A stretch of 64,000 nt of DNA, from the NCBI GenBank assembly GCA_030068145.1, contig JAPJBO010000113.1, forward strand, positions 248,001-312,000, given 5' to 3'. The notes below the pieces were generated by a model. It saw only the letters and a program-made list of their open reading frames with translations, was not told the origin of the DNA and did not search any database. Positions 8,440 through 51,646 of this stretch are shown in pieces. The stretch comes from Diplonema papillatum. Lineage: Eukaryota > Euglenozoa > Diplonemea > Diplonemida > Diplonemidae. Each line of letters begins with the position of its first letter. Position 1 is the stretch's first letter. Position numbers and translations under genes: made by a program.

Positions 8440-8740
8440 TGGCACTAGTCATTTTACTAGTCAAAATTTTGACTAGTAAACCCAGTCAAAGTCGAAAAAG
8501 TCCTTGACTAGTGCACCGTGTAGGTACACGTTAATTGTTTACTACTATTGCTCTCGCCACCCGTATCGCAATATGATATAGTCACGGGTATTCAACCTGC
8601 GCAAACCATAAGCAGCACCACAAATTCACGAAAAGAGACGGTCATACGGTACCATTTCACTCTAAAAAATCCCTAAGCGAACTTGCACTCTAAAAATAGG
8701 CCCAGACCTGCCCACGTTTGGTACCTCGGTCCCCGCATGC
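8440..8740 (+). repeat. Penelope-associated untranslated region (ACTAGT repeats and shared block)
   Basis: 8440-8510 has inverted ACTAGT motifs. 8637-8715 (ACGGTCATACGG, then AAGCGAACTT, then ACTCTAAAAA) aligns by eye with 51,232-51,300, just beyond the third deubiquitinase remnant. ACTAGTGC[AG][CT]CGTGTA also occurs in both places. This fits terminal or pseudo-LTR sequence of one retroelement family. Confidence 0.45.
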
Positions 8741-9207
8741 TGAATATCTATGAGAACACAAAGTTCGTAAAGGAATGAAAACACACTGCCCAGACCCTGC
8801 TCTAACAGCACAAAAGGAAAACCCCCCCTTCCCCCTCGCCTCACAAGTCAAACGGAGACTTCAAAAAACCGACCGCTTACTACAAGATCAGTCTAGAACA
8901 AAGAAGGGATGGCGGAGAGGCCGTGGTGTTTCAAGAAAGAGGTGTTCAGAAAATATTGTGTTTCAAGAAAGAGTTGATCAGAAAATGTTTGGTTGGGATG
9001 GGGGGCCTCGTATGTTGAGCAACTCTACGAGTAACGGCTTCGTACTCACCCACTCGTCCTTGACTTGACTTCCACACGAGCTTCCGCGGCCTTCTCGCGT
9101 GGAGTGTAAGCGGGGAAGCGCGGGTACTCGGACCTGAACACCATGGCGGTCCTGCGCATTCGGCTGAGCTTCCTCATTCAAGTCAAACTTTCGTCATTGT
9201 CGCCGAA

Positions 9208-10710
9208 ATGAAAGCGAGGTTTGCCAAATATCCACACCTCACACCAGATACCCTTCCAAAAAGAGTCCTGGACTCACTGAAAGTGCTAAAGTCACACTTC
9301 GTCCTGACGAAAGTTGACAAGAGCAGACACGACGTAGGATTCGTGTGTAAAAAACACTACCACCGCATGCTGCAAAATCAGCTCCGTTCGAACTGTTATG
9401 CAGATATGCATGACATCGACGAGCTGCGAACCACTCTGGCAGCAAGAAACGTGTCACTGGGTTTCAGCCCTGTAGGTAAGCTACCCTACCTCTACGGCCT
9501 CCCGAAACTACACAAGGAAAACAAAGGCATGCGCTGGATAGCAGGAGTTTCTTCCCGCAGCCCGCCCCTTTGTGAGAAAGAACTTGACGGCCTTGACTTT
9601 GACGACGAACCCCCTCCCGCACCTCGACCCCCTCCCCAATCGAAACCCGCGAAAGGAAAACCGAAAGCAGCGACCACGGAAGCCAATACCTTACTTTCGC
9701 AACTCTTGAAACTAGTGATGCAGTTCCTAAAAGCCAAAGATGATATCCTGAAGGCGGAAAAAGGGATATCCAGGTACTGGATCATCGAGAGTGCCGATGA
9801 AGTCGCAGCGGAAATCAAACAACGATACCGAACATTCGACTTCAAAACGATGTTCAACGAACTTCCGCAAGAAGACCTTAAAAAAGGTGTTTCAAATGCG
9901 GTGAAGGAAGCCTTCGAGTTCTCTAAAACATCCGAGTTTACGCTTTTTGGAGGTACCAAAAAGGAAAAGTCCTATACCCAGCAAGATATCGAATCTCTCA
10001 TCGCCCTCTGCGTTGATAACTGTTATGTAGAGCAAGGCGGTATTTGCATGAGACAGATCTTTGGACTTCCTCTCGGAGCCAACGCGTCACCCGATTTAGC
10101 AAACTTATACTGCTATGACGTCGAGTCCAAATATATAGACGAACTCATGAAGGAAGATGAGGCGAAAGCAAAAGCGCACAGAGACTCAAAAAGGTACATG
10201 GACGATTTTCTTACGTGGGGAGTGGAGCCGCCCCCAGCAACACTTTATAAAATGGTGTACAAAGAAACAACACTAAAAGAAGGCGACGTAGAGTATCTAG
10301 GCATACGGATACGGATGGAGCAAAGCACCAACGAGCACCTTAGCTTTGTCAGGCTCTCAGTCAATGACAAAACAAGGAACTGGCACTTTAAACCAGTAAG
10401 GTTCGTTCACCAATGGTCAACCATCCCTGACCACCAGGGGTCAGCCATCCTGAAAAACTTGCTCATTCGCTGCCTCAACTTGTGCAACAACTGGCACGAC
10501 GCGCTGAGAGAAATTCAGCTAGTACTTTACTTACTGCTGAACAGAGGCCATCGCATTCAGAAGCTGAAAACAGTCTTCCACCACGGTGTGCAAGAACGTT
10601 TGCCGAACCTCGGCGCGTCGCAACGGTCCCTAAAACAATGGTTTCAAAAATGCACCGTCTCGTACTACGCGGGGTTTCCACTTATAGAAGAACAAAATAA
10701 TAAACGCTAA
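9208..10710 (+). CDS. Penelope-like reverse transcriptase (copy 1, 5'-truncated)
   Basis: The 500-residue frame holds RT motifs in order: VDKSRHDVGF (about 35-45), LPYLYGLPKLHK (about 93-104), motif A DFKTMFNEL (about 211-219), motif B MRQIFGLPLGANASP (about 280-294), the catalytic motif C RYMDDFL (about 328-334), then EYLGIRIRME. These align with the longer element at 30.8-35.3 kb, so the two are one family. The P-K-x-H-K box and the [YF]-[IM]-DD centre are typical of Penelope-like RTs. No GIY-YIG domain is present upstream, so this copy is 5'-truncated or never had one. The frame ends in a single TAA at 10,708-10,710, and the next codons continue in the same frame into the OTU frame. The linker after the motifs is rich in basic residues. 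Confidence 0.8.
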   Translation: MKARFAKYPHLTPDTLPKRVLDSLKVLKSHFVLTKVDKSRHDVGFVCKKHYHRMLQNQLRSNCYADMHDIDELRTTLAARNVSLGFSPVGKLPYLYGLPKLHKENKGMRWIAGVSSRSPPLCEKELDGLDFDDEPPPAPRPPPQSKPAKGKPKAATTEANTLLSQLLKLVMQFLKAKDDILKAEKGISRYWIIESADEVAAEIKQRYRTFDFKTMFNELPQEDLKKGVSNAVKEAFEFSKTSEFTLFGGTKKEKSYTQQDIESLIALCVDNCYVEQGGICMRQIFGLPLGANASPDLANLYCYDVESKYIDELMKEDEAKAKAHRDSKRYMDDFLTWGVEPPPATLYKMVYKETTLKEGDVEYLGIRIRMEQSTNEHLSFVRLSVNDKTRNWHFKPVRFVHQWSTIPDHQGSAILKNLLIRCLNLCNNWHDALREIQLVLYLLLNRGHRIQKLKTVFHHGVQERLPNLGASQRSLKQWFQKCTVSYYAGFPLIEEQNNKR

Positions 10711-10752
10711 CAAAAAAGAGTAGGCCGCAGAAGAACAAAGAAAGTAAGTGAG

Positions 10753-11727
10753 GTGGTATCATCACTTTCGAGAGAAAACTGCATTCCAATTCTTTCCCCA
10801 TCCGCCAACGAGGACAACCCTCGCGACAGACTTCTCAAACGCGAACTTAAACTTACAGCAAGATTGAGAGAAATAGGGTTGCAACCGCGAACCGTATCTG
10901 GTAATGGTAACTGTTTGTTCTTGAGCTTGACTTACGAACAAGGCGACCAGATGGTTCTCCGCAACGAACTGGCAGATTACTGGGATGCACACAGAGACGA
11001 TCTGGAACTCTTCTTACCCGACATGAACATTTCTCAATACATCGAAAAGCTACGTGAGAACTACACTTGGGGTGATTACCTCTCCCTCGTAGCCTTCACA
11101 AAGCTTAAGAAGGTGCAAATCCGCCTCTTCTCAATCGATGAGAGAAACAGGTTCCACACACAAACGGTTGGAGAAACGGGTCCTCTTGTATTGCTCGGTT
11201 ACATAGCTCAGGTGCACTACATCCCAGTCACAGGCACAATCTCCGACACACAACTCAAAAGGTTCCTTGACCCCCGAGCGAAATCTGCAGAAAGTCCTTC
11301 TGTCTCCTCGACATTCCCAGAAGAGCTCGCCCGCCCGCAAGAGCAGCAGCCGGTAGCGCAACCGGCATCTCCGAAAGAGCCACTCGCTCAACCGGAACCA
11401 CCGGAACAGCCACCTGCTCGCCCGGCGACACCGGAGCATCTAGAAAGTCGATCGCAAACGCCGGATCAGCCGCAAACACCGGAACTACCGCAAGGACTAT
11501 CGACGCCGTCACAAACACAAACCCGGCACGCAAGCCCACCAGCAAACATCCCACGAACACAAGAACGCAGCTTCCAAAACGAAATGGTTCTTCAATGCCG
11601 CCATTGTGGCGTAACAACAACGAGGTCTGGCAACCCGTTTGCCAACCAGTTCGGTGTGGGTGTGCATGAACGGACCTGTGAAAAGAATTCAGAAGGACTA
11701 CACAGTCCAAGTCCAGACAGAAACTAG
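10753..11727 (+). CDS. OTU-family cysteine protease with C-terminal zinc finger (retroelement-encoded)
   Basis: The frame is open from 10,711, directly after the TAA that ends the RT; the annotated start at 10,753 is only the first GTG. The OTU core shows SGNGNCLFLSL with the nucleophile Cys at 10,912-10,914, the TWGDYLSLVAF helix, and VHYIPV with the catalytic His at 11,215-11,217. OTU proteases remove ubiquitin from proteins. Next comes a proline/glutamine-rich linker of about 100 residues with PEQP-like repeats. The end has CRHC...H-x4-C, a C2H2-like finger resembling that at the end of the USP protein at 35.3 kb. The usual acidic residue before GNC is replaced (SGNGNC), which is tolerated in some OTUs. 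Activity is inferred, not shown. Confidence 0.8.
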   Translation: MVSSLSRENCIPILSPSANEDNPRDRLLKRELKLTARLREIGLQPRTVSGNGNCLFLSLTYEQGDQMVLRNELADYWDAHRDDLELFLPDMNISQYIEKLRENYTWGDYLSLVAFTKLKKVQIRLFSIDERNRFHTQTVGETGPLVLLGYIAQVHYIPVTGTISDTQLKRFLDPRAKSAESPSVSSTFPEELARPQEQQPVAQPASPKEPLAQPEPPEQPPARPATPEHLESRSQTPDQPQTPELPQGLSTPSQTQTRHASPPANIPRTQERSFQNEMVLQCRHCGVTTTRSGNPFANQFGVGVHERTCEKNSEGLHSPSPDRN

Positions 11728-12072
11728 CCCAGCATCTACCTGGCGCGCCTGACCCAGCGAGCTACGAGGGTCCAAAAATACAACCTGCCCCTTTTCTTTT
11801 AGAAACATTTTCTCCTTTCCTCCTTTACTTTGATCATAGGTGTCACGGCAAGTTTTGGCAGCCGCTGCTTAACAAAATTTGACGTGGGCGGCTTTGGATT
11901 TACATCTGAATGACACCTCAATACAAAAAAAGTTGTGGACAACTAACAAGTAAAAGAATAAAACAAAACTACGCATTTCTTTCAGTTCAGCAAGCGTCAG
12001 ACATCACTAAACAACAGGTAGGGTGGGGGAACGCCGCGTAGTCGGCACAGTTTTTCACCCCGACCCTCAAAT
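11728..12072 (+). other. Intergenic gap between the OTU frame and the WD40 gene
   Basis: This is 345 bases with a CT-rich tract (11,800-11,830) and an acceptor-like TTTCTTTCAG near 11,980-11,990. No gene is seen. It probably holds the retroelement 3' end and the host leader. Confidence 0.4.
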
Positions 12073-12861
12073 ATGGCCTACCTATCCGATGTAACACACA
12101 AGATACTGGTTGGCAAGCATCAGCCAGCTCTTGGCATACCGATCGAATACCAGTGGTCGCCTCGCCACAGCAAGAGACCAGATGGTCTTTCTGATCATGA
12201 AGAAGTTGGAATATCAATCAGTGGCGAGTTTGTCGGCGGAATCCGATGTATGGAAGTTCATCGTACCCCGGGGAGCTCGATTGACAACCTGAAGGTCTGG
12301 ACAGGAGAGCAAGATGGTGCTCTCTGTGTACGGGACGGCCGCGGATTAGGTAAATTCACGATAGAGAAGAAGAAGAAGATTTTTGTGACGGCCCTAATGT
12401 GCCATGGCTGGGACAGCACACCCGGGCGCTACATGTATGCAGGGCTGAGTGACGGTTACATCCGTGTGTATGACCAAACACCACTACCAGACGGTGGCGT
12501 AGACTACGAAATGGTGAGCGAAACCAAAAAGCATACCGCTAGTGTCACGTGTATGCTCTCTGTCCGCGACCTCATTATCACTGGCGGCCGAGATTGGCAG
12601 ATATTCATGTGGCGTTGGGATGGAAAGCCGGGCGCAGGCGGTGTGTTTCGTGCTATCGATCAATTTTGGGGCCACCAGAATGCTGTTCGCTGCCTCGCAT
12701 TCGATCAAGGACCTGACAGACTTCTGTACTCCGGAGGAGATGATTGCTCGATCAAATGTCTTGAGCTTGAAACTGGGGTTTCCCGCTCTGTGCCAGGCGG
12801 CTTTCCAATCGAAGGACACAGCATCAGTCGACATGGCCACCAAGGCGGTATTCGTGCATTG
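12073..12861 (+). CDS. WD40-repeat protein, exon 1 (host gene)
   Basis: This exon has 263 codons from ATG 12,073 to a G|GTATGA donor at 12,861/12,862, phase 0. It encodes several WD40 blades: a diverged one around VWTGEQDGALCVRDG, then MYAGLSDGYIRVYD, LIITGGRDWQIFMWRW and LLYSGGDDCSIKCLE, and it ends at GHQGGIRAL just where the next blade should start. WD40 propellers are protein-interaction platforms. Exon 2 at 25,797 continues in frame with VVYEKHLFSASEDGSIKVWD, completing the blade. Codon use and amino-acid composition differ from the flanking TE sequence. The N-terminal 60 residues have no clear blade. The specific function is not recognised. Confidence 0.75.
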
Positions 12862-13269
12862 GTATGAGTTTTGCTTTCGGAAAATGATTACAGGATAGAC
12901 GGTAATTCTGGCATTTTTATTTCTGGCGGATTTGCCTGTCGGTGATGTCCTTCATCAACTGCTTCTCCTGCATGCGCCCCAACTCACAGGGTACCCCCTT
13001 CCTCACCAGGTGTGAGCTTCGATGCGTCCCAAACCTTTGCGGGAGTCCCATCTTTGCGTCTCAGTTAGATTCAGGGGGCAGAAGACGCTCTTTGCGACAG
13101 GCTTGCAGAACGAGCGAGCGTTAATTGTGGCGTTTTTAATTCTGGCGGACAATTTATTTCTGCTGGAATCTGGCGGTGGGCCCCCGGTCCGGCAGGCCAC
13201 AGTGCGGTTGCGTGGGTGTAAAAGCCAGGTGAGAGGGAGGCAAAACAACCACGCATCAATCGCATTTAC

Positions 13270-14444: not shown

Positions 14445-14798
14445 GCTAAAAGCCTCTGGCCGACAGAACAATGTAGGTAAGGGAAGTCGGCAAACTGGAT
14501 CCGTAACTTCGGGAAAAGGATTGGCTCTGAGGACACATGCGGGATTGTCAGTGCGGGTCAGGTCTGGGCTCAGATTGAAGGTGCTGTGAGTGGCGCTCTC
14601 GGGTGCTACCCGCGGCTCCTGATTTCTTTCAGGCCTTCTTGCATGTTGTGCCCGCAATGAAGTGTCAGCTTGGAACTGTTACGAACAAGAGGAATCCAAC
14701 TGGTTAATTAAACCACAGCATTTCGCTTCATCACAGCGGTGGCGAGTGGAATGTGACTTCTGCCCAGTGCCCTGAATGTCAACGCTGAGAGATCAGGT

Positions 14799-14858
<60 letters not shown>

Positions 14859-15380
14859 TTCTAATTAAAGACGCGCATGAATGGACCAATGAGATTCCTT
14901 CTGTCCCTACCTACTATCTGGCGAAACAGCAGTCAAGGGAACGGACTTGAAACTGTCAGCGGGGAAAGAAGACCCTGTTGAGTTTGACTCTAGTCTGACT
15001 TTGTGCAGTGACACGAGAGGTGTAGAATAGGTGGGAGGCCGCAACAATGAAATACCACTACTCTTGTTGTCGCTTTACTTATCCAATGATGGGAAGACGG
15101 CAGCTGCTCCCTTGTGGGGTTAGGGTCTTCGGATCCGTAGCTTATCCGTTTCCAGCGACAAACGGGCTTCGGCTCGCGAATCCTCGTTTGGAGACACCAG
15201 TCAGGTGGGGAGTTTGGCTGGGGCGGCACATCTGTTACACATTAACGCAGGTGTCCTAAGGCAAGCTCAGCGGGAACAGAAATCTCGCGTAGAGCATAAG
15301 GGTAAAAGCTTGCTCGATACAGATTCTTCAGTACCGATCCTCGGTGTGAAAGCATGGCCTAACGATCCTTTGGTCTCGCT
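14445..15380 (+). rRNA. 28S (LSU) rRNA fragment, 5' flank of the LINE
   Basis: Conserved 28S stretches are present in order: AATGTAGGTAAGGGAAGTCG, CGGCGGGAGTAACTATGACT, CTCTTAAGGTAGCCAAATGC, GCGGGGAAAGAAGACCCTGT, GAGAGGTGTAGAATAGGTGG, TGGGGCGGCACATCTGTTAC and a GCATGGCCTAACGATCCTTT end. This spans roughly LSU domains IV-V, about 935 bp, not a whole gene. The R2 target site (TTAAGG|TAGCC near 14,840) is unoccupied. Similarity stops near 15,380. It is a displaced or interrupted copy rather than an rDNA array. Confidence 0.9.
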
Positions 15381-15509
15381 TCGTGTTCAAGGGATGAAGA
15401 AACGATTTAAAAGCTACAGTTTCTGTACTTTATTGGACAAACACCCTCCATAACACAACAGCGGTACCCATCCGCGAAAAGAACGCGGGCTACCCGTAGC
15501 TCCGTCAAA

Positions 15510-15785
15510 ATGGACAGGATTAACGCCCTGATCCAGCAAGCGCGCGGGATGGCGGAACGCGCCAACCGCGACCAGCTGGATGCCGTTTTCGGCATCCTCG
15601 AAGTCGCCACGACGCTGCTCCGGCGTCAGATCGAGGCGAACAGCGGGGAGCCGGCGCAACAACGACAGCAACACCAGCAACACCAGCAACACCAGCAACA
15701 GTAGCAGCAACCACAACAGCAAGCGCAGCAGCAGCGTCAGCCGCCGAAACAGCATCAGCAGCAACCTCAACAGCAGCAGCGACCA

Positions 15786-15816
<31 letters not shown>

Positions 15817-17528: not shown

Positions 17529-17840
17529 CTGCCATCGCACCACGACGCCAGTGCCGGCGGGGATGCCGCCAATCTGCGCCTTCTGAGGTGCGGGGACGTC
17601 CACCCCAACCCAGGGCCGGCCCGCGCCGTCTGCCTCGCGACCCTCAGCGGGGCCTCGTTCCCACTGTTCCTGGCCGCCCAAGGGGACCGGTGCCGGTACC
17701 ATGGGCACGCCCCCTGCTCTCCACGACGGCGGGCTCGCCCCCTGCCGCCCCTCTGTCCGGCTCCTCGCCTGGCGATTCGCCGCCGCACTGACGGTGACGG
17801 ATTTCGCCGCGAGGCCAAGGGCCCCCGACGTCGTCGCACT
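17526..17840 (+). other. ORF1/ORF2 junction: in-frame UGA followed by an open frame with a first 2A peptide
   Basis: After TGA (17,526-17,528, context TGT TGA CTG) the same frame stays open into ORF2. The first 2A-like motif, RCGDVHPNPGP, is at 17,586-17,618. The roughly 100 codons before the second 2A include hydrophobic stretches (LATLSGASFPLFLAA) and an R/P-rich section. ORF2 could be reached by UGA read-through or re-initiation, then released by 2A ribosome skipping. Confidence 0.6.
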
Positions 17841-23012: not shown

Positions 23013-23062
23013 ACACGGAGTGTGCATAGTGCGTTGCTCAGGGTAGTCGAAGGCCTGACAAT

Positions 23063-23083
23063 CACACTAATGCAACAAATTTA
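23063..23083 (+). repeat. Internal copy of the LINE 3'-terminal motif
   Basis: CACACTAATGCAACAAATTT here recurs at the very 3' end of the element (24,447-24,467). The RNase H frame lies exactly between the two copies. Confidence 0.8.
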
Positions 23084-23084
23084 G

Positions 23085-24284: not shown

Positions 24285-24468
24285 CGAAGCCCGCGAACGG
24301 TGGGTGGTGACCCCTTCGAACAGTCTCCCTGGCCCTGGCCCACGCCTGATGCCGCAACCCCTTAACCCGGGCGGCGGCGCTTTGGCATGAGCCAGGAACC
24401 TCAAGGGGAGCAGCGCGAGAGGCATCATCCACGCTTCAAAGGCCCCCACACTAATGCAACAAATTTAC

Positions 24469-24629
24469 GACTCTAGTCTGACTTTGTGCAGTGACACGAG
24501 AGGTGTAGAATAGGTGGGAGGCCGCAACAATGAAATACCACTACTCTTGTTGTCGCTTTACTTATCCAATGATGGGAAGACGGCAGCTGCTCCCTTGTGG
24601 GGTTAGGGTCTTCGGATCCGTAGCTTATC
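24469..24629 (+). rRNA. 28S rRNA fragment, 3' flank of the LINE
   Basis: The 161 bases from GACTCTAGTCTGACTTTGTG to GTAGCTTATC are identical by eye to 14,986-15,146. Afterwards the sequence leaves 28S (TTGCGCCATC). It is the downstream partner of the 28S fragment at 14,445-15,380. Confidence 0.9.
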
Positions 24630-28689: not shown

Positions 28690-29529
28690 CTACCGCTTCG
28701 TGCCGCGACTTGCTGACTTTGCTACAGGTTTCCTGCCAGTGGTTCTTGCTCTCTTAGCCTCTTTTTGGTCTTTCGCAGCCAGCTCGTCGAAAACCTGTTT
28801 CTTCTTGAGCCGCTTTTTATGGAGCCTTCCTTTCAGACCTTCGCTTGAGCTAGATGACGAGCACTCACTCCTGCTACTCAGTACGTCACACTCACTATCT
28901 GAGTTGCACAGCGGCAGCTTGTCCGAGACCTTTGGCGTGAACGTGAAGGCCACAGGGCGGGTTTTCGCTCGAAGTTTGCACCCCGGTTCACCACTGAAGT
29001 CATGAACTGTCACATTGCCAAGGCTGTCTTTCTCATATGACCCGATGACCATGACGTTCCCTATCTTTCTGACGTTGAAAGTGGCGGTTTGTGAACGGAT
29101 ACGAACTTGAACTGCCGCTGTGCAAGCAATCCTTTCTATCACTCCTTTGACATCGTTCAACGTTTGCACGGCGTTCTTGCGGGATGCCATGTCGAGTGCC
29201 CGGCTAACAGAGCCGAAGTGCTGGTCACGGTCGTTCTTGCCGTGCCCGCCCTCAAAGAAGTTTATCGAAGCCGTCGATTTTTCTTCGAGAAGGCGACTGA
29301 TGAAGAGGAGGCTTCGGAAATGCCTACCAGAATCACACCAGTAAACACACTTTTTGTCTTCCGGAAAGAATTCCTTTGCCCGCTCCAGAGCACGCACTGC
29401 GGCAAACGAGCACTGATTGTGCGTGCGCATCAGTATGTCAATGTGCTGGCGTTTGGTCGAATCACCAGTTGTCCAATGCAAGCCAAACCCAAGGAGAGAG
29501 AAGGCCCCCTGGTTGTAAAAAAGCTCTAC
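28690..29529 (-). pseudogene. DDE-type transposase C-terminal remnant (HGK-x3-D motif)
   Basis: The minus-strand frame is open from after a TGA at 29,530-29,532 to its stop at 28,690. It encodes TKRQHIDILMRTHNQC, then YWCDSGRHFRSLLFISRLL, then NFFEGGHGKNDRDQHFGSV. An Asp followed by an HF segment and then GHGKxxxD is the layout of several eukaryotic cut-and-paste transposases. The C-terminal 100 residues are acidic and serine-rich, then strongly basic (KKRLKKKQ), possibly a nuclear signal. No Met begins the frame, so the N-terminal half is missing. The superfamily is not assigned. Confidence 0.5.
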
Positions 29530-29537
29530 TCAACGCA

Positions 29538-30150
29538 ACATGCTGCTGCCGACTATCTACCGTAGCACTTACTCGACTCCTCTACTCCTCTACTCCCGGC
29601 GGCGCCTGTTCCCTGTACAGTCTGTTGCTCCATTGAGGCCAGCGACCCACGCACGGACGCGAGCCGGAGACACGAAGCGCGACGCTATCGCGGAAGACCA
29701 TAAGACGGCTCTCCCGGACGGGATGTGAGTTCAAGTTCAAGGGTACATGTACCTTCGGCGTTGCACTTTGCCGGACGACGCCCATTTGGAGCTACGCTCT
29801 ACACACCGGCCCCCGGATGGCGGTCCACCTCCTGCGACGCGCATCGCCGAGTAGACCGCCAACCGGGCTGCCCGTTGATATTGGATGCCACGGCTGCCTG
29901 CTGACTGACATACAGATTAGTGCAACGCGCCGCCCCCCTCTCCCCTACACTACGTCCCCATGTTTACATGCCGCTGCCGACTACCTGCACTATCACCTCC
30001 TCTACAACTACGCCCGGTACCCAGTCCGCTGCTCCGTCAGAAGCCAATGACCCATCCACGGACACGAGCCGAAGACGCGATGCGCGACGATATCGCGGAA
30101 AAACTTAGGGCGGATGATTTAGACTGTTCCCCTGGACGGAATGTGAGTGC
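29538..30150 (+). repeat. Diverged direct repeat upstream of Penelope copy 2
   Basis: 29,538-29,735 and 29,962-30,150 share ATGC[TC]GCTGCCGACTA[TC]CT, then CC[CA][AT]CGCACGGAC-like and CG[AC]GACGCTATCGCGGAA-like segments. Each copy encodes a similar short peptide (DP-x-TD-x-SRR then RRYRG). They may be 5' terminal subrepeats of the retroelement. Confidence 0.4.
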
Positions 30151-30844
30151 TTCGTTTGTTGTGTCCTTCTCCCATCAACGACAGGGGAACCCGGTTCATT
30201 CCGGGGCCTAGGTGGACGGAGCGGCCGTACCCACCCAGTCACCCCAAACGCCGCGGGGTGACCTCTCAAAAAAAGAACCCGCTCGCTTTCTGAGGGCTCT
30301 GACGCGAGGGACGTACAGAGCCCGAAAAAAACCCGCCTTGTGCACACAACCGACGAGAAGGAAGCAACCGGTACAGGTAGGGAGACGGTCCACCCAAATC
30401 GACTTCGCCCCGCTGTACCACCAACCACGGCATCGAGACCGGGCAGAGTTTAGGTGAACTCCATCCTGCCCCCGTACGGTCTCGTCACTACCAATCGGGA
30501 CCTGTTCCATTGTACAACCGAAACCCCAGAAAATCGACAAAAGACGCGTCGGGCCCTGAGCCTGGCAAAAAAACCAGTAGCAGTAGTTTAGAAGCGTGAA
30601 TTCCCTACCCCCCCGTGTATTGCACCGCCGACCGTCCAGACGAACAAGCCGCCCCATCCGCCCGCCCCTCCCTATCACCCCTTCCGTTACGTTACGTTAC
30701 GTCATAGATCTTCCCTCCGACTCGTTGGCCTTCCTCCACGACGACCCACCGTCCCCCCAAAAAAAACCCCCCGACTGTTCCGCGTGTCCGGTTTTGCGAC
30801 GACCCGGTCCACAAACGCGCGAGGTCCTACCGGAACGGGTCAAG

Positions 30845-33800
30845 ATGCGTGTACCGCCTGCCGACGCGGATATGCGGCGGCGCCCGGAGTTTGCGAAACC
30901 ATTCCTCGCACCCTTCTTCCAAACCGACTGCGTTCGTACGAAGACGGAAAAGACGACGCAGATCGACTGGTCGAAATGGAAGGAGCAAGGCGTGGAATTC
31001 ACGAGCCGGTTCCTGAGAAGATACGGGAGGAAGCTTGCACACACATACGCGACGCTCAAGCTCCAGCAGCCGGAGAACCCGAGCAACTACAAGGCTTCGG
31101 GTCTCATCTATGGACTCGTGGACTCGCATGCTAACCTGTTATATATCGGCAAGACAGGCAAGACGATGCAGGAAAGGGTCGCCAAACACTGGTCTGGCAG
31201 GAACAGCAAACAGGACCAGTTCAAGCGTCACTTACAGAACCTCCCTTCCCCGCCGTACGCTTTCGTGCTCTACGACATCCCTGGTGCGTTTTACTCCGAC
31301 GGGAGTTCGTTCGACAGGGTGTCGGAGCCGATAGAGATGGCGTTCATCGCGATGCTGCAGCCGATGTTCAACACGGTGAGGACAGCCAGCGATTTGAACA
31401 GACGGAGGAAAAAGCCCCGCACTGCACCATCGTTCACAAAGGCACCGGGCAACGAACGGGACGCCCAAGGAGCTTCACGCGAGCGTGGGGAGCCGTGGGT
31501 TCACGTGGATGGCGAAGAGATACGGATCAACCAGGGACGGGGTAGATTCTTCGGCATCCGTAGGCAGTTGCAGCACCTCTTCGGACTTGAGGAGGACGCA
31601 CTGCGGGAGTATGACGTGAACCCGTGGATGAAGAGCCGGGTGTACAGGGTTCGGACGTGGGTTCGGCGGTTCATGATCGAACACCTGCAGCATCCGAAGG
31701 TGGGGATCCTGGACGAGCTGCTCACTGCACGGCTTGGTGAGATAAACCACCTCGCGAAAAAGAAGAAAAGTGCGGCACGAACCCCGTGGTTCTGCATCCA
31801 ACAGGTCAGCAAGCTGCTGGACGAGCGCAAACTTGCCGCTATCTTCCGCCATGATGCCCAACTCCGTGCTCTCCTCGCCGACCCCACGGAATTCATCAAC
31901 ACGAGAGTCTCTACGTCACTCAACCCCCCTCTCGGGGTCCTCCTTTCCAACTTCACAGAGGTTTCAAGACAGACGACCCCGGAGCCGGCCCCTCCGCCCG
32001 AAGACTGCCCGTGTCAAAAGTATCTGCTGCAAGGATACCACATTCAAGGCCATGCGTGTGGGCAAGCACACCTCCTCGACACCTGCAGCGAACTAGTTAC
32101 GCTCTTCGACAAAGGTCGCAAGTTCCGCCCGGATGGCGGCGACGAAGCTATTTGTACTGAAGTGGATAGGGCGGTGGCTTTGTTCGTCGAGGGGTACTTT
32201 AATGACTCCCCGCCTAGTTTCGCCAGACTGCTGCGGGAGAAGATAATGTCGACCGTCGGCGTGACGCGTATTGGTGCCGAACCGGAGGTGACAACCACAT
32301 CGCGTCGACGCCTGCGAGAACTGCACAAGGACCTCGTAATTCTCCCGGTCGACAAGAGTTCTCACGACTTCGGGTTCGTGTGTAGAAGATTCTACAACCA
32401 GGATCTGTACACGAAGGTTAACCACAGCGTGAACTACGCCCCGAGCGAGAAGACACCGGAAGAAGTCGTAGCAGATCACAAGACGTACCTGGAGCAAAAA
32501 GGGCTGAGCCCCACGAACACCCTCCCCTACCTTTATGGCACCTTGAAACTACACAAGGAGGTGATAACCATGCGGTACATCGCCGGGGTCTCCCGCAAAA
32601 ACACTGTGGGCCCGGGGGAGACTTTTCCTGAACGCGAAACACGCCGCCCCGATGCAACATTTTCATCGACGACGGATGCACAGCTGGATCTAACGGGTCT
32701 GTTGAAATCAGTCATGGAGATCCTACGGAGGGAGGACAACGACCGATTCAACGCGACCGGGTTTAGATTCTTCTGGATCACGGAGTCCAGTGACGACACC
32801 GCCTTCTTTCTGAAGACGCATGTTGACGAGCTCTCGGGCCTGGTCGCGGGTACATGGGATTTCACGACCATGTACGACCAGCTGGGACTCGAGGAACTGC
32901 TGGAGGAAATCGCTGGTACCATCGACGAAGCCTTTGCAGCGGAGGCCGAACGGCTCGGCGTTCGGGTTGATGAACTGGTCCTAGTACGACCGAAGAGCCA
33001 ACATGGGCCGCAGAAGAAGAAACGTTGTTTTGCGTTCATGCTGTTGACGGATCTGAGCTCACAGCAGGCAGCATATTCTGCACACGACCTCAAGGCCCTC
33101 CTCGCTTTCTGCCTGGCGAACACGTACGTACTGGTGAACGGCATCCTCATGCGGCAAATATTGGGCATCCCGATGGGCGCTAACGCCTCCCCAGACATTG
33201 CCAATCTCTTCTGCTACGCAAAGGAGAAGAGGTACATGATGAGACTCCTGGCTGAAAGGGACATCCGGCGGGCTACACTCCTCAGCATGACGCGCCGTTT
33301 TATAGATGACCTGCTCTGTTTCGGGACGAAACCCCCTCCCGAGTCCATCTACAGCATGGGGTACAAGCAGACGAATGCATGCGTAGGGGATGCGACTTTC
33401 CTTGGCATACGGATACGACATGAGGTCTCCGGCGCGTCTGGAAGGCGATACATGCGACTGTCGGTCTTGGACAAGGCGAAAGCCTACCCGTACCGCCCCC
33501 TCGCGTACACGTCAGTCCTGTCTACGGCCCCGTCAAACTTCGGTTCGAGCATCCTCATTGGGGCCCTCGTTCGCAACGGTAGGATCGCCAACAACATATA
33601 TGATTTCAAGACCGAAATGAACAACACGGTCTTGAAACTCATGCGGCGTGGTTACCGGAAAAGCGTTTTGAAGAGTGGATTCCGCAAATGGCTCCTGGAC
33701 ACATACCCAGAGGCCAAATTTGGCGAGCATTGCGGGAAGGTGCGGAGGCACTTCTTCTGGCTCATTCACGAGGTGGAACGCACTCTATCACTGCCAGAGC

Positions 33801-35344
33801 CGGCCGCGATGGACCTTGCGATCGAGCGCCTTCTGGCTGAAAGACCCTTCGTGAAATACAATGGCCGCCCCCAACCTGTCCCGGAAGCTGAAGATGACGC
33901 CCCCCGATCACCGCCCACCGAAGCACCGACCCGACAGGCTGACACGACCGCCCCCCGTGAGTCCACGCGGAAAGGCCACAAGCGAAAGGCTGAAGAGGAC
34001 GAACAACGGGCTTCAAAGCGACGCCGCTCGAATGTCCACAAACCGGTTCTAACAGTTGCCCCTCCATCCACGTGCTACCGATCAGACGTTTGTACACACC
34101 CGCCTTCCGTGAGGCATGATCCGACGCTGTTTGGCCCCGCCGGCCTCCCGAATCTGGGGAACACGTGCTTCTTTGGTGCGGTGCTGCAGCTCCTGCTACG
34201 GGTTGGGCCGATCAGAGAGATGTACTGGAGCCTTGCGCAGGACCTCCCCAACTGCCGTGGATTTCTCGGGGACTTCCTGGCTTACTTTGCCATGCTGTCA
34301 AGCTCTCGCGACAGTGGTGACCAGCGTAGCCGGGATTGTCGGAGAATGGGTGTCCAAGCCATCCTGAGCATGTTCGCAAACTTCTGCGATGCACGGCAGC
34401 ACGATGCGCACGAAGCTCTGGTAGCGATACTCAGCGCGACTAGTGCGACGCTGGGTCCGGACGAAACGGGGACCCCCTGCCCGGGCTACCAACTCTTCGT
34501 AACATGCTTGGAGAACGGCTGGACCAGCTCAGTACGATGCAGTGCATGTGGACGCACTTCTTCCAGCAGTCAGGTAATGCAATGTTTGCAAATTCCTTGC
34601 GGAAGGAAGCTGGAAGACTCTCTCCACGTGCACGGGTTTGTGAATCCGGAGAGAGTATGCGACTGCAAGGCTGTAGGTACGGTGGTTGAAAGCATGGATC
34701 TCCGTCTGACAGCTGAATGTGTTCTGATGCAGTTTGGCATCTACACGAGAAACGGTGCCAGGCGCCAGAATGACGTGAAACTGCCCCCCTTCTTCGGACC
34801 GCCGGACCATCTGCTACGCCTCGCGGCCGTCGTGGTGCACATGGGGGAGGATACGGCTAGCGGGCACTACGTCACGTACGTTGCGCAAGACACGGGGTGG
34901 ATCCTCTTCGACGACCTGCACGTCACCTCTGTCGACGACATTCCGTGGGGTGACGTTTACCTCGCGGCCTTTGTCCGGATCCCCCGGAATGCCCACGACA
35001 TGACTGTCCGTGCCCCGTCACCCTCCATGGTGCTTCCCACTCAGGATCGGCTACCCGACTTGCCTGCACCCCCAGGTTCAGCCGGTAATTTGATGAGCCG
35101 GCAGTCGGAAGGATCACCTGACTCCTTCTGCCCCTTTGGTAATTCGCCACCCTGCCCGCCCTTGCCGGACTCCCAATGTCTGACACCGCATGGTCAGTTG
35201 TTTGAACAGCAGTTAACAGGTTCCCCGGTGCTGCGATGTCAACACTGCTCCGTCGAATGCACGAAGGATGGCCAGACGTTCCAAGGTCTGAGGGGACTCC
35301 GCGCGCATGAGAGACGTTGCCACCTCGCGGGTGTGAGATTCTGA
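30845..35344 (+). CDS. Penelope-like polyprotein: GIY-YIG endonuclease - reverse transcriptase - ubiquitin-specific protease - zinc finger
   Basis: The frame is open from 30,596; ATG 30,845 is the first Met, giving 1,499 residues. In order: GIY-YIG nuclease (GLIYGL, LLYIGKT, a conserved Arg in MQERVAKHW, Glu/Asn in EPIEMAFIAMLQPMFN; about 31,095-31,375). RT follows with PVDKSSHDFGF, LPYLYGTLKLHK, motif A DFTTMYDQL, motif B MRQILGIPMGANASP and catalytic RRFIDDLL (about 33,294). A basic KRKAEEDEQRASKRRR linker comes next. The USP domain has the Cys box GLPNLGNTCFFGAVLQLLL (Cys 34,166-34,168), zinc ligands CSAC and CDC, and the His box ASGHYVTYV (His 34,865-34,867) with WILFDD. It ends in CQHC...H-x4-CH. 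The N-terminal GIY-YIG is permuted relative to classical Penelope, as in the Naiad/Chlamys-type clade. All catalytic residues are present and there is no stop, so this copy may be active. Confidence 0.85.
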   Translation: MRVPPADADMRRRPEFAKPFLAPFFQTDCVRTKTEKTTQIDWSKWKEQGVEFTSRFLRRYGRKLAHTYATLKLQQPENPSNYKASGLIYGLVDSHANLLYIGKTGKTMQERVAKHWSGRNSKQDQFKRHLQNLPSPPYAFVLYDIPGAFYSDGSSFDRVSEPIEMAFIAMLQPMFNTVRTASDLNRRRKKPRTAPSFTKAPGNERDAQGASRERGEPWVHVDGEEIRINQGRGRFFGIRRQLQHLFGLEEDALREYDVNPWMKSRVYRVRTWVRRFMIEHLQHPKVGILDELLTARLGEINHLAKKKKSAARTPWFCIQQVSKLLDERKLAAIFRHDAQLRALLADPTEFINTRVSTSLNPPLGVLLSNFTEVSRQTTPEPAPPPEDCPCQKYLLQGYHIQGHACGQAHLLDTCSELVTLFDKGRKFRPDGGDEAICTEVDRAVALFVEGYFNDSPPSFARLLREKIMSTVGVTRIGAEPEVTTTSRRRLRELHKDLVILPVDKSSHDFGFVCRRFYNQDLYTKVNHSVNYAPSEKTPEEVVADHKTYLEQKGLSPTNTLPYLYGTLKLHKEVITMRYIAGVSRKNTVGPGETFPERETRRPDATFSSTTDAQLDLTGLLKSVMEILRREDNDRFNATGFRFFWITESSDDTAFFLKTHVDELSGLVAGTWDFTTMYDQLGLEELLEEIAGTIDEAFAAEAERLGVRVDELVLVRPKSQHGPQKKKRCFAFMLLTDLSSQQAAYSAHDLKALLAFCLANTYVLVNGILMRQILGIPMGANASPDIANLFCYAKEKRYMMRLLAERDIRRATLLSMTRRFIDDLLCFGTKPPPESIYSMGYKQTNACVGDATFLGIRIRHEVSGASGRRYMRLSVLDKAKAYPYRPLAYTSVLSTAPSNFGSSILIGALVRNGRIANNIYDFKTEMNNTVLKLMRRGYRKSVLKSGFRKWLLDTYPEAKFGEHCGKVRRHFFWLIHEVERTLSLPEPAAMDLAIERLLAERPFVKYNGRPQPVPEAEDDAPRSPPTEAPTRQADTTAPRESTRKGHKRKAEEDEQRASKRRRSNVHKPVLTVAPPSTCYRSDVCTHPPSVRHDPTLFGPAGLPNLGNTCFFGAVLQLLLRVGPIREMYWSLAQDLPNCRGFLGDFLAYFAMLSSSRDSGDQRSRDCRRMGVQAILSMFANFCDARQHDAHEALVAILSATSATLGPDETGTPCPGYQLFVTCLENGWTSSVRCSACGRTSSSSQVMQCLQIPCGRKLEDSLHVHGFVNPERVCDCKAVGTVVESMDLRLTAECVLMQFGIYTRNGARRQNDVKLPPFFGPPDHLLRLAAVVVHMGEDTASGHYVTYVAQDTGWILFDDLHVTSVDDIPWGDVYLAAFVRIPRNAHDMTVRAPSPSMVLPTQDRLPDLPAPPGSAGNLMSRQSEGSPDSFCPFGNSPPCPPLPDSQCLTPHGQLFEQQLTGSPVLRCQHCSVECTKDGQTFQGLRGLRAHERRCHLAGVRF

Positions 35345-36009
35345 TCCGCGTCGTTTGAGCCTCATCGGATTCTTGATTGCTGGCTGGTCTATATTTCACT
35401 CCGCACCCGTTTACCCTGACTAACGGGAAAAACTCGAAGTGTCTGTACGAGTGAACGCACACTAACATGAGAGGATGAAGGCACGTATATGCCGCCTGGC
35501 CCTGTGCTAGGCGTAGTTTGAGGTTGTACTTATTTCCGAACAACCTACCACGAGCTTATCCACCCACACCCCCATTTTTCCCCTTTCTTTTTATTTACTT
35601 TTTCCCGCCCGATGTCGCTGATGACTAACGGACCGTCGGACCCGTCCCAACGGGGGTGCTTATGGAAGCTGCAATGAAGGCTTAGACCGGTACGGGCTAC
35701 ATGGCAACCCCTGCTCAACATGTAGAACGTGGGGGGCCCTTGATCACATTCATTACGGGTGTGGTCGTGGTGTCGGTCGCAATAGTCGCTTTGCTAGCCA
35801 AAGAGAGAGATAGAGAGAAAAAGAGCGCCAGAGAGAAAAGAAAAGATAACGTTATCTTCCGGAAAAGAAGGGTTACGCGAACCCCCGAAAAAATAATTAC
35901 CCCCCAAAAAAAATATACAGAAAAAAAAAATAAAAACACAAACCGACGGTGACCCCCAAAACCTTTTTCAACCTTTCCAACACCCTTCAAGCTAAACCAT
36001 TATACAACG
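35345..36009 (+). other. 3' untranslated region of Penelope copy 2
   Basis: This AT- and purine-rich stretch holds the block at 35,684-35,740 shared with copy 3 and a GATAACGTTATC palindrome near 35,846. It contains CTGATGA at 35,619, but the rest of a hammerhead core is not present. No gene is seen. Confidence 0.5.
35684..35740 (+). other. Conserved Penelope 3'-UTR motif, copy 2 element
   Basis: AGACCGGTACGGGCTACA, GGCAACCCCTGCTCAAC and TGTAGAACGTGGGG match 51,031-51,084 at nearly every base. A conserved non-coding block at the 3' end suggests RT recognition or RNA structure. Confidence 0.7.
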
Positions 36010-36323
36010 ACCCCCCCCCTTTTGGCATCGTACCATATTTATATTAGCGCCCAAAATAGCCGCTGTCATCAACCTACGGAGCCGGAAAAAATACTCCAGG
36101 TGTCATACGTGCATATCTTGCACGAAAGTTTGTCAGCCCTCAAAACCCCAACTCCCCCTCCCGGGGTTATAAACTCAGTGCAGTAGTTAAAGTGAAAAAG
36201 GTGTTTCGTGCCCTACCTGTGCCCTACCTAATTACGACCGGGCGAAACCCGGCGACAACACTCGGGCTCTAATGCCCGCTTTCTGACAGTCGCCATCTTG
36301 CACCGTTTAATCAGCCAAACCAG

Positions 36324-38754: not shown

Positions 38755-38792
38755 GTGAGATATCAAACATCTTGTGTTCGATGCCCTTACAG

Positions 38793-42680: not shown

Positions 42681-42694
42681 CCTCAAAAAAAAAC

Positions 42695-47971: not shown

Positions 47972-48617
47972 GTGTTAGTCTCATCAGTTTCTTCAATTGT
48001 CTACCACCTCTCCCCCAGCCAACGAAAGCCTACTTAGTCCTTGCCATAGCTTGCCGAGCCGATCAATACCCAGTTTGCCACCTTTAACGAAGAAATCTAA
48101 ACCTCCCTAGCTACCCCTGGGAAGCTGCAATCCAGGGCCTGCGGGCAATGAAATCAGCAGCTGATCGGAGATACAGCGTTATAACTGGGGTCTACGACAC
48201 CTAAATCCCCCGGGCGACCGGCCGATCAGTGATGGCGTGAGGGGTATTTATCCTAGTGATGAGTGTGTGCGCTCCTAAAATCAAAGGCTACTCATCGGTG
48301 TCCGTCGGGTGCTCGGGCGGGGTATCCCGAGCAACAGGGGGAGCGATCCACCTGGCCTTAGTCGTTAAAACAGTCGACCTGCTGCTTCTAAATCCACGAA
48401 GGGGGGCCCTCCCCGAAACGGGCATACCAAAGGGTGTCCTCCCTCAAAAGGACAGAAAAACGTTCGCTCTCCGGCAAAAGGGCGAAAGACACCAATCGAC
48501 AAGGAAGGCTCAAAAGGAAAAAGCAAGGGACAAACGTCAGGGAAAGGTTGGAAAGGTAATGAACGAAGTCACGTTCGCAGTCGCACTCCTCCTCCCCCGA
48601 AAAGCTCTGTTCAGGAC

Positions 48618-49169
48618 TTGACTGGTCTTGTCGTGAGCCTTCTTGTGAGGAAGAACCTGCACCGCGACTTCCGTGTCGCAGCTGCACACCTGGGAAAAGA
48701 CCGTACACTGAACGTGTTTGGTCATTTCTTAAGAAAGTCGTCAACTGGGGAGCTTCAAGGTTATTTGGAGCAAAACCTCCTCGGTAGGCTCAAACCATCG
48801 AGCTCAAACCATCGAGAGTTTGCATCCACCAAACCAATGCCCCCCCGAAAGCTGCAGACAAAAAGAGCAGAGCTCCTCTGCCGAAGCCGACGATTGCACT
48901 CGTTTAATCGGCCAGAGGTGAGGAAGAATCCGTGGATGACCCCCTTCAACTGCTACGAGGTCCTGCGGAACAAAGAGGCCTTCCACAAAGAAGAATTCTT
49001 AGCGTTCTCAGGGCACAGCATTGCGCGTTTCAAGAACGGCAAACCGCGCATGAAAGAGCCAGAATACATTCTGTTCCATTGCATTGTGGGGCCGGTGCAA
49101 GAGAAAACGCTATCTGGAGGCGGGGCTAAAACGCAGCTGACGCTTCCGACTTTGCAATGCGTGGCTTGA
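48618..49169 (+). CDS. Unknown protein, possible element gene
   Basis: The 183-residue frame contains KNPWMTPFNCYEVLRNKEAF, HKEEFLAFSGHSIARFKNG and EPEYILFHCIVGP. No motif is assignable. It ends 30 bases before the deubiquitinase remnant. The phrase GGGGCTAAAACGCAGCTGA[CT]GCTT occurs at its end (about 49,125) and again at about 49,184, possibly an insertion footprint. Confidence 0.25.
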   Translation: MTGLVVSLLVRKNLHRDFRVAAAHLGKDRTLNVFGHFLRKSSTGELQGYLEQNLLGRLKPSSSNHREFASTKPMPPRKLQTKRAELLCRSRRLHSFNRPEVRKNPWMTPFNCYEVLRNKEAFHKEEFLAFSGHSIARFKNGKPRMKEPEYILFHCIVGPVQEKTLSGGGAKTQLTLPTLQCVA

Positions 49170-49197
49170 CACGGTAAGGGGGGCTAAAACGCAGCTG

Positions 49198-50880
49198 ATG
49201 CTTTTTGACTTATGTAAGCTCATGGCCCGAAGACACCAACCCCTCAACTTCAAACCAGCCGAACTGCCTGTAACACCGGATGATCGCGACTCGATGACAG
49301 GCAGCCACTCCACAACTACCCACGAACACGAGAAAAGACCAACAACCCTCCTTTCACAACCACAACCACAGTTCACCTTGAAACACCGAGTAGCCAACCT
49401 AGCAGCAACCATCACTTTAGCGGCAGCAATCGCAGCCGCCGGAGCGAGGACCATGTCGAAACTCACGAGATACACCACCACAAACTCCTGTTTTCTGCAA
49501 GCTGCCCTCAACTTGATCTGCCACAGACATGGCACAACAAGTAGTCACATACCACGACTGCCCAACACACACGAAAGGCGAATGCACGGCAGCTGTCCAC
49601 GCTTGGGTGACAGGAAAACGGACGCAAGCAATACTGCTGCACGTTTTTGCCAACATTGACGGACCGTTCGGCAACGGGCAGCAATGCGACCTCGGGGAAG
49701 TGCTAAGAGCCATCACCACAGCACTTCTTGACGAAAACCTCGCACACCAAGCTTGCCAGCAACATCGCCCTGACGCTTTCAACGGTCTACGACATACAAC
49801 GACGACGACAACTAGTTGTAAAAATAGTTGTAAAAACTGCAACCACAACAAAACCAACCCCCCCGAAGACCATAACCTTTCTACCTCCAATCGACAACTC
49901 GATCCAACGGTGCTTGAACAACCACATCAAACCTGGCCCCGCCGCCGACTACAGATGCGAAGTCTGCAAAATCACCGATACCACCCTCACAACAACAACA
50001 TTTCACCGCATTAATTCAATGCTGTTGATCCAGCTTCAAAGAGCCCGTAGACACGAAGCGACGAACCGTACCGCTATATATACGCGCCGACCACTCCATC
50101 ACGCTTCCAGGACAAAACACACCACTCGTTCTCAGAGCCATGGCAGTACACTCCGGCCACAACAACGCAGGGCACTACGTCATCCACGCCCTCAACGATA
50201 TCGACGCTAACCAACGATGGACGCGCTTCGACGGACTACAGACGCACTCCACTTCGACACAAAACTACGCCGACAACGAAGTTTACCTCTGCATCTACCT
50301 CGCTCAAAGACTACCCACAGACGGATGTCCCGCCACCCATAGACGCATCATACCACAACCACTATGAACCCCCAAAGCCTGCCACGTCCAGAACCACAAC
50401 ACAAGAGCCGGACTCGACTCAAAGTATACTTAGAGCCATGCGCGGAGACGAGACTTCTACCGACACACCCACAACGACGCGACAGCACACCCCCCACACG
50501 AACACCCACAACACCAGGCACGTCACAGCCTCCAGTACCACCGCGGAAACAGAGACCAGCAGTGAAGACGACTTACGATGTCCCCACCACAACAACAACA
50601 ACCGGCCTCAAACTGAAGGGAGAACAAGGATTGCGGACGCACCTACTGCAAGAAGAAACCACCCAGAACTAAGTCACAAGCAGAAACAACGCTGCGAAGC
50701 ACCACCCAGAAACGAGAGAGATGTCCCTACTGCCACAGCGACGGACGAACCGTGGGGAAACCACTCTTCAAAAGTCTACGCCACCGTGCAAAAAGAAGCA
50801 CTGTAAACGACGCACAGCAACGACGACTCCATCAGACAGATCACAAACCACAGGTACCCAGTGTGCCCAGAGTGCCTTAA
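49198..50880 (+). pseudogene. Ubiquitin-specific protease of a third Penelope-like copy (5'-truncated, frameshifted)
   Basis: Three frames read as one USP with at least three shifts. Cys box: TTTNSCFLQAALNLICH (Cys 49,489-49,491). Then HVFANIDGPFGNGQQCDLGE and AITTALLDE. Finger and palm: FLPPIDNSIQRCLNNHIKP, ADYRCEVCKITDTTL, INSMLLIQLQRAR. His box: VHSGHNNAGHYVIHAL (His 50,173-50,175) and RWTRFDGLQ. USPs cleave ubiquitin from substrates. Two C2H2-like remnants follow (RCPHHNNNN... at about 50,575 and RCPYCHSDGRTVGKPLFKSL then RHR at about 50,720-50,780). No RT is present, so the element is 5'-truncated. The USP is only loosely similar to that at 34.1 kb and is more Thr/Asn-rich, so it is a distinct lineage. 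Confidence 0.65.
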
Positions 50881-51030
50881 CTGTGGCGAGCAACGAACAG
50901 TTTTACCCTGCAAATCTACCCAAAAAAAACCTTATATTAGGGCGGAAACAACCCGCACCACATGAAGTACCGCAAGTGTCGCGAAACCCAAGCACTACTC
51001 TACGAGAAAATACATAAAAACGCGGACAAC

Positions 51031-51084
51031 AGACTGGTACGGGCTACAAGGCAGCCCCTGCTCAACTTGTAGAACGTGGGGCCC
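51031..51084 (+). other. Conserved Penelope 3'-UTR motif, third copy
   Basis: AGACTGGTACGGGCTACA, GGCAGCCCCTGCTCAAC and TGTAGAACGTGGGG match 35,684-35,740. This ties the USP remnant to the same retroelement family as the intact copy. Confidence 0.7.
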
Positions 51085-51646
51085 AAGACTACACTCCACG
51101 AAGGAATGTACTTTGGTGTCGGTCACAAACAGTCCCGGACATGGCTAGCCATAACCCATAACGAAAGCGTGCACTAAATATACAACCCGTAACCACATAG
51201 CCCTTTCTTGCTCTAAGAGAACCCATTCATGAACGGTCACACGGAGACCCTAAAACGCCGGAATTTCAAGCGAACTTTAACTCTAAAAAGCGGGCCAGGA
51301 TACCTAGTCTGAGCGCTGAAGTTGGAAGTCGTCTTTTTTTTGACTCAGCTCAATGCAGGTTCACTGTATTTCACTGGTTATTGAGCTAGTTTCTTCTTTC
51401 TACTGGGAGAGCTAGTTATGTGCTAGTTGCTACTTATGTCCGAAATCTCACTGGTCATTGAGCTAGTTAATAACTAGTGAAACCCCAAAACTAGTGCGTC
51501 GTGTATGCCGGCAAGTGTCCGCCAAAGTCTAACTGACACGTTCCCACTGTGTTCGACTCAGCCGTTTCCCACTTGAAGCCCCGAACTTAAACACAGACAC
51601 CTATAACACACAGCACGTTGGAGCTTTCAGCCCAAACGAAGAAGCA
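51085..51646. other. Penelope-associated terminal region and upstream of the next gene
   Basis: 51,232-51,300 resembles 8637-8715, and CTAGTTATGTGCTAGTT / CTAGTTAATAACTAGTG repeats follow to 51,500. 51,550-51,646 is probably the leader or intron end before the next exon, with an acceptor-like GCTTTCAG near 51,622-51,630. Confidence 0.4.

Follow-up and report, generated by a model that had tools for sequence, protein, structure and literature searches.

A 64,000-nucleotide stretch of the genome of the marine protist Diplonema papillatum (GenBank assembly GCA_030068145.1, contig JAPJBO010000113.1, positions 248,001 to 312,000 of the forward strand; hereafter, the window) carries three copies of a retroelement family that repeatedly encodes deubiquitinases (DUBs). 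Judging from the order of their domains, a GIY-YIG endonuclease, a CxC motif, and a reverse transcriptase (RT), they belong to the Penelope-like retroelements with an N-terminal endonuclease; a DUB follows the RT. By sequence comparison, this DUB behaves as a cassette, the same place being taken by a USP, an OTU, or, in relatives only, a Josephin domain, and the presence of three DUB types there suggests that ubiquitin removal is needed by the element. An earlier sequence-only reading of the window had proposed that the family recurrently carries OTU and USP domains, and the genome bears this out: open frames of at least 1,400 codons contain 38 of 136 USP match rows and number at least 23 for OTU (hand counts). 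Six such long frames, four OTU-type and two USP-type, were read individually, and each combines a GIY-YIG and a CxC motif, recognized by eye, with an RT and a DUB, recognized by model.

Copy 2 (29525..36019; like the other element parts located below, on the + strand) is a recent USP-type element of 6,495 bp. As the sequence-only reading stated, GIY-YIG, RT, and USP share one frame, which runs uninterrupted for 1,585 codons (30587-35344); its in-frame ATG at 30845 opens an open reading frame (ORF; 30845..35344) for a protein of 1,499 aa, the first residues of which are identical to those of P0002. Over the region searched, this protein is 100% identical to a record from D. papillatum. The GIY-YIG core match (31100..31231) scores 22.4 bits in Pfam, just below the cut-off of 22.6. 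The RT (32312..33718) aligns with positions 1 to 451 of the 452 in the family RT model; a Pfam scan of the frame returned no RT match, and the identity of this domain rests on homology and on the RT aspartates, which are invariant in 43 aligned rows. The USP (34115..34981; Cys codon at 34166, His codon at 34865, Asp codon at 34910) scores 74.4 bits against Pfam UCH, for which the cut-off is 23.9. The protein ends with a C2HC finger region (35207..35341; tblastn and pattern), and a predicted pseudoknot motif is found in the 3' untranslated region (UTR) at 35691..35740 (31-base pattern and alignment of motif copies). The linker between RT and USP is probably flexible, with a predicted local distance difference test score (pLDDT) below 50, i.e., low confidence, at model residues 516-607. 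A fold search with a model of this type of RT-USP protein gave matches filled by USPs and has no bearing on the RT.

Copy 1 (9192..11960, with a 3' end at or beyond 11960) is a 5'-truncated OTU-type element. Its 98% DNA match to the related element L041, over 9192-11819, begins inside the element, and GIY-YIG is missing; the stretch 11730-11960 is 92 to 100% identical to 40 scored genomic places. The RT (about 9277..10605) was recognized with the copy 2 protein (tblastn, 34% identity over 483 aa, E = 1e-68). The OTU protease domain (10852..11232) scores 37.8 bits in Pfam (cut-off, 23.3), retains the catalytic Cys and His, and matches OTUD3 in PDB (E = 1.4e-5). The description of copy 1 as an RT followed in frame by an OTU protease is right as to the frame, but the two are not in one ORF, being separated by a TAA stop at 10708..10710; L041 has a 1,523-codon frame with zero stops. 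A Foldseek search with the L041 OTU model matched OTUD1 (E = 2.6e-6), the mean pLDDT of that model being 51.9 (67-87 in its best blocks and below 50 for residues 7-28, which include the Cys). Farther downstream are a C-terminal C2HC finger region (11563..11682; tblastn with copy 2 and pattern) and, as a feature beyond the earlier reading, a looser form of the pseudoknot motif of copies 2 and 3 (11844..11895).

Copy 3 (49222..50838), previously described as a decayed USP, proves to comprise a degraded USP and a finger, both from a third subfamily. When the 1,576 six-frame segments of the window were searched with a USP model made from the relatives' sequences, two colinear stretches in separate frames matched (E = 4e-5 and 1.5e-4), and tblastn with L047, a member of the third subfamily, recovered pieces in several frames (2e-39 for a group of four pieces, 1.7e-6 for the last piece). 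By eye, the last 1,300 codons of L047 carry a USP and two terminal fingers. Pfam found no match in four copy 3 frames, tblastn with the proteins of copy 2, P0004, P0009, and copy 1 found none at this locus, and homology and model searches of the locus found no RT. The 3'-UTR motif of copy 3 is at 51038..51086 (31-base pattern and alignment of motif copies). Just upstream of copy 3 is a second feature absent from the earlier reading, a 5' fragment of an OTU-type element that covers an N-terminal portion of the ORF (48274..48996), which has 93% DNA identity to L044 and 79% protein identity over 48369-48995. Elsewhere in the window, nested inverted repeats (fold-back elements) are found at 1228-4663 and 6318-8429, and the sequence 1227-4663 recurs at 89-97% identity beside the L047 element.

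Further copies linking RT and DUB, the existence of which the sequence-only reading had left to a genome-wide search, were found in the 271-Mb D. papillatum assembly. All 40 scored matches to the copy 2 3' UTR (the best 40 of 1,669 candidates) are 100% identical. Compared with 20 further 10-kb stretches, copy 2 is spanned over all its 6,495 bp, at 99.8-99.9% identity, by four copies (L025, L026, L027, and L030), which reach approximately 770 to 1,040 bp past its 5' end; L026 has a second copy close upstream in the same orientation. The remaining copies of this type have many different 5' starts and a single common 3' end; of the 16 copies with a real left flank, 11 have a run of C at the left junction or close to it (hand count; 4 of the 20 left flanks are still element sequence and were excluded). 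Varied 5' ends, one 3' end, and C runs fit target-primed reverse transcription with 5' truncation, and the near-identical copies fit recent activity of copy 2-type elements. For the USP domain, the 136 scored matches among 667 candidates fall into bands of ~100, 95-98, 87-88, 76-78, and 60% identity, and a stop is present in 3 of them (hand count). The best 132 of 5,296 OTU candidates yielded at least 166 match rows, some of which are pieces of one place, and the matches listed fall into bands of ~100, 94-96, 77-81, 61-66, and 41% identity. Related RT families with open frames of up to 2,210 codons are also present. On contig C97 of this genome (G000), two pairs of USP matches (318644-322219 and 380756-384331), each of one 78%-type and one 60%-type match 2,718 bases apart, lie in 1,459-codon frames; they may be fused elements in a stretch that looks duplicated, and, within the 38 long USP rows, the members of these two pairs may share a frame.

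The predicted 3' pseudoknot ties the OTU and USP types together. Copies 2 and 3 share the motif over 51 bp at 92% identity, in agreement with the earlier reading, and the 31-base pattern has two matches in the window and none in 100 shuffles; genome-wide, the motif pattern has 1,806 matches, with 0 in the control. The putative loops GGCA, UGCUYAAC, and ACGUG are common to copies 1, 2, and 3 and to L031/L034, with a variant in L004. The stems between them covary, 8 of 11 pairs having changed on both sides among five sequences (covariation of 0.59 versus 0.06-0.23 when the model is slid), where the model was drawn from the same five sequences that supply the covariation, and five are few. Folded singly, two UTR stretches display no excess stability (z-scores of 0.63 and -0.26). 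Rfam searches of the window and the copy 2 3'-UTR stretch gave no credible family for the motif (one match for the latter, E = 2.2), and comparison by eye revealed no convincing likeness of the copy 2 3' UTR to hammerhead or HDV-type ribozymes. The predicted pseudoknot is possibly a binding or recognition site for the RT.

Beyond D. papillatum, a search with the RT of the distant relative P0009 retrieved 202 proteins, most of them without a source name. Among the best 120, every one of the 46 with at least 200 residues behind the RT has a USP there, while 7 have tails of 36-199 residues and 67 have tails of fewer than 36, with a USP in none. DUB presence was scored among the long tails only, because short ones may be contig ends. 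The RT of copy 1 retrieved 18 proteins, including USP carriers from D. papillatum, a USP carrier labeled Rhum in EukProt, which we take to be Rhynchopus humris, and P0140, which has a Josephin domain behind the RT (40.5 bits; cut-off, 26). The similar region of P0141 scores 17.9 bits, below the same cut-off. P0137, labeled by eye as a Josephin carrier, is unsupported (E = 6.5) and still bears that label in the RT tree and in the counts of fingers and basic patterns. Three DUB families are therefore found behind related RTs, USP and OTU in D. papillatum and Josephin in relatives only.

A quick RT tree of 106 rows unites 7 USP, 4 OTU, and 3 Josephin-labeled rows in one group of 14 (SH-aLRT support, 98). 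The tree contains only proteins found in this analysis; it leaves out 16 near-duplicates or broken models (P0002 to P0008, P0129, P0130, P0132 to P0134, P0136, P0142, L043, and L045), rows with fewer than 330 RT model positions, and two of every three DUB-less rows among P0084 to P0128, and some rows marked "none" or "trunc" are perhaps just incomplete. Since the tree is quick and has long branches meeting, it is relied on only for the mixture of DUB types in the 14-row group. The terminal C2HC finger is present in 4 of 4 OTU rows, in 3 of 53 USP rows (all from D. papillatum), and in 2 of the 3 rows labeled Josephin, and in none of the 36 DUB-less or 10 truncated rows; this distribution indicates that in finger-bearing elements the DUB is a cassette between the RT and the finger. 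At the other end of the protein, the GIY-YIG core pattern is found in 88 of the 92 rows with enough N terminus (54 incomplete rows were set aside), and the GIY-YIG of relative P0063 passes the Pfam cut-off (26.9 versus 22.6 bits). Between endonuclease and RT, 98 of the 133 rows that are long enough have C-x-C followed by GH (13 further rows are too short); C-x-C alone, a loose pattern met partly by chance, occurs in 29 more and is absent in 6.

The active sites are conserved. All 55 USP rows have the catalytic Cys, all 53 that extend to the His have it, and 50 of 53 have Asp or Asn at the third position; the His is directly followed by Y or F in 53 of 53, and the zinc cysteines hardly vary. 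These counts omit P0002, P0003, P0129, P0130, P0132, P0133, P0134, and P0142 and include both L046 and P0004, which are nearly identical. All 5 OTU rows compared, including one identical pair, keep the Cys and the His. The USP has the fold of peptidase C19; by profile, its closest relatives of solved structure are USP12/46, and the best fold matches include USP1 with FANCD2 as well as the SAGA Ubp8 module, all at ~20% identity, which gives little information on the substrate. The statement that OTU and USP are unrelated folds with the same chemistry holds insofar as they are separate families, but, in the accessible text of PMC7391069, both are clan-CA "Cys-before-His" proteases. According to the same text, an aromatic residue follows the His in most DUB families, contacts Gly-75 of ubiquitin, and limits cleavage.

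The ratios of nonsynonymous to synonymous substitution rates (dN/dS) indicate mostly purifying selection and argue against neutral evolution of the DUBs, a possibility that the earlier reading had raised. Between copy 2 and L045, dN/dS is 0.05 for the RT, 0.16 for GIY-YIG, 0.21 for USP, 0.24 for the linker, 0.69 for the tail, and 0.76 upstream of the ATG; between copy 2 and L046, it is 0.11 for USP (dS, 2.6), 0.46 for the linker, 0.32 for the tail, and 0.64 upstream of the ATG; and between L045 and L046, it is 0.16 for USP and 0.27 for the tail. For the OTU-type pair L041 and L043, the values are 0.07 for the RT, 0.05 for OTU, 0.10 for the linker, and 0.44 for the tail. In several comparisons dS is saturated (infinite). 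The USP thus appears constrained, although less so than the RT and, in one comparison, barely more than the linker. RT and USP distances correlate with r = 0.87 over 53 rows, some of them near-copies, and none of 999 permutations gave as high a value; by group, r is 0.90 in the P0009 group (44 rows) and 0.98 in the diplonemid group (9 rows, including near-copies). RT-USP fusions are present in two groups, between which the RTs share a mean identity of 26%.

This co-divergence, the recurrence of the fusion in the two RT groups and in other records, the 136 USP and at least 166 OTU match rows in the genome, and the constraint on the domains contradict an accidental joining to host exons or an error of annotation, either of which we consider next to impossible, although pieces of the RT or RT-USP proteins lie in five D. 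papillatum gene models with host names (P0006, P0008, P0132, P0133, and P0134, named as Rrp12, an Mg/proton exchanger, STIP1-like, UNC93-like, and a dynein chain). These models represent either mis-annotation or exonised elements.

N-terminal EN+ (endonuclease-positive) Penelope-like elements, reportedly described by Craig et al. in 2021 as Naiad and Chlamys, have a CxC motif and an insertion-in-fingers domain in the RT and are not known to contain a canonical hammerhead ribozyme. The Diplonema family resembles these elements in having GIY-YIG before the RT, CxC between the two, and a single ORF, as well as in 5' truncation, tandem copies, simple-sequence targets, and the lack of a hammerhead; in D. 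papillatum, 5' truncation, a tandem copy, and C-run targets (the last by hand count only) were all observed, and no hammerhead family is among the 77 Rfam matches of the window up to E = 1. The Diplonema elements differ from what is known of Naiad and Chlamys in the C-terminal USP, OTU, or Josephin domain, in the terminal C2HC finger of some members, and in the predicted 3'-UTR pseudoknot.

Joining a ubiquitin-related protease to a mobility enzyme is not new as such. In the accessible part of PMC2836005, Ginger1 DNA transposons carry a C-terminal OTU or Ulp1 domain, never both, which follows the same cassette logic; they differ in being DNA transposons with an integrase-like transposase and no RT, and the proteins scanned here gave no match to an integrase or transposase family at E = 0.1 or better. 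The same source cites one Trichomonas vaginalis transposase with a Peptidase C19 (USP) domain. OTU domains occur also in Helitron/Helentron proteins, which belong to rolling-circle DNA elements (PMC6431247 and PMC4067079). The former source describes Terminons, rotifer telomeric elements that likewise combine a Penelope-like RT with accessory functions, in the sections consulted exonucleases, esterases, stand-alone GIY-YIG-like proteins, and Rep proteins, not deubiquitinases. The main text of the D. papillatum genome paper (PMC10161547) contains neither "Penelope" nor "ubiquitin," and that of a 2024 paper on a Penelope-like element (PMC11167929) does not contain "ubiquitin." Searches of open-license full texts, judged mostly from their listings, showed no Penelope-like element with a deubiquitinase, USP or other, in line with the sequence-only reading, which knew of none with a USP.

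What would the DUB do for the element? On balance, we lean toward in-cis ubiquitin removal that protects the element's RT-endonuclease-RNA complex. The fused DUB would strip ubiquitin from this complex, sparing it from the proteasome until it has arrived at DNA and copied itself. Two features favor action in cis, namely, the fusion of the DUB to the RT and the use of different DUB families at one position. Several observations weigh against this proposal. Both the DUB activity and the element's own protein as its substrate are inferred. Many relatives lack a DUB: among the best 120, 67 stop no more than 35 residues behind the RT (a few of these have an incomplete RT), which implies that the DUB is dispensable in principle. 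Ser replaces the third catalytic residue in 3 of 53 USP rows, yet 52 of 53 retain the Asp that follows. The linker value of 0.24 is close to the 0.21 of USP in copy 2 versus L045, and copy 2 versus L047 gives a USP dN/dS of 0.47 in a pair too diverged to trust (23% identity; dS, 2.4). A basic bipartite pattern behind the RT, considered as a nuclear signal, was found in only 4 of 60 rows and was rejected.

The DUB could instead act at the insertion site, deubiquitinating histones or repair and replication proteins (H2A/H2B, PCNA, or FANCD2-like) and thereby enabling nicking, priming, or second-strand synthesis. The similarity of the USP to USP12/46, USP1-FANCD2, and SAGA Ubp8 points in this direction, as does the DNA-repair link that the Ginger authors, in the accessible part of PMC2836005, proposed for the DUBs of DNA transposons. 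At ~20% identity, however, these matches say little on the substrate, the occurrence of OTU and Josephin at the position of the USP speaks against a single conserved nuclear target, and the nuclear-targeting-like pattern is not general. We regard such a role as unlikely, if still a serious contender.

Counter-defense in trans, with the DUB deubiquitinating host silencing or sensing factors and DUB exchange reflecting an arms race, seems less probable again. USP diverges faster than RT in the P0009 group (mean identity of 32% versus 57%), and one RT group combines several DUB types, both of which would be expected under conflict; RNAi components have been reported in the D. papillatum genome, according to the main text of PMC10161547. 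Nevertheless, accessory domains commonly change faster than the RT, the USP comparisons indicate purifying rather than diversifying selection, and the DUB has been seen fused to the RT, never as a separate ORF of the element. A DUB-like cysteine protease could also release the RT and other units from the ORF product, in the manner of retroviral proteases, and the long single frames (~1,500 codons; a related family reaches 2,210) and the probably flexible RT-USP linker would suit this. Such processing is improbable because ubiquitin-specific features are kept, namely, the zinc cysteines of the USP and the aromatic residue next to the His, the latter being the Gly-75 contact of PMC7391069; the existence of DUB-less relatives also speaks against it.

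Two neighboring features of the window deserve mention. A WD40-repeat coding piece at 12022-12864, downstream of copy 1, is probably a host gene fragment. A piece of 28S rRNA (14462-15442) adjoins a GC-rich (66-71%) long interspersed nuclear element (LINE; 15705-24629) with endonuclease, RT, and RNase H, and an identical 161-bp repeat (14986-15146 and 24469-24629), found in the rRNA piece and beyond the LINE, is like a very long target-site duplication.

If the protective role of the DUB is real, ubiquitin would be a barrier that retroelements must overcome, and the element would itself encode the counter-tool, in several versions that can replace one another. Single catalytic mutants in one protein would then make it possible to test, for a hard question, which ubiquitin event is limiting for retrotransposition and at what point, and natural RT-USP, RT-OTU, and RT-Josephin fusions are available for comparison. 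Host entries annotated as "ubiquitin carboxyl-terminal hydrolase," such as P0002 and P0004, could then be transposon products. More broadly, and at a little short of even chances in our judgment, a deep Penelope-like lineage may depend on built-in ubiquitin removal, its slot having been filled at least three times (by USP, OTU, and Josephin), as ubiquitination of retroelement complexes would be a general barrier in protists.

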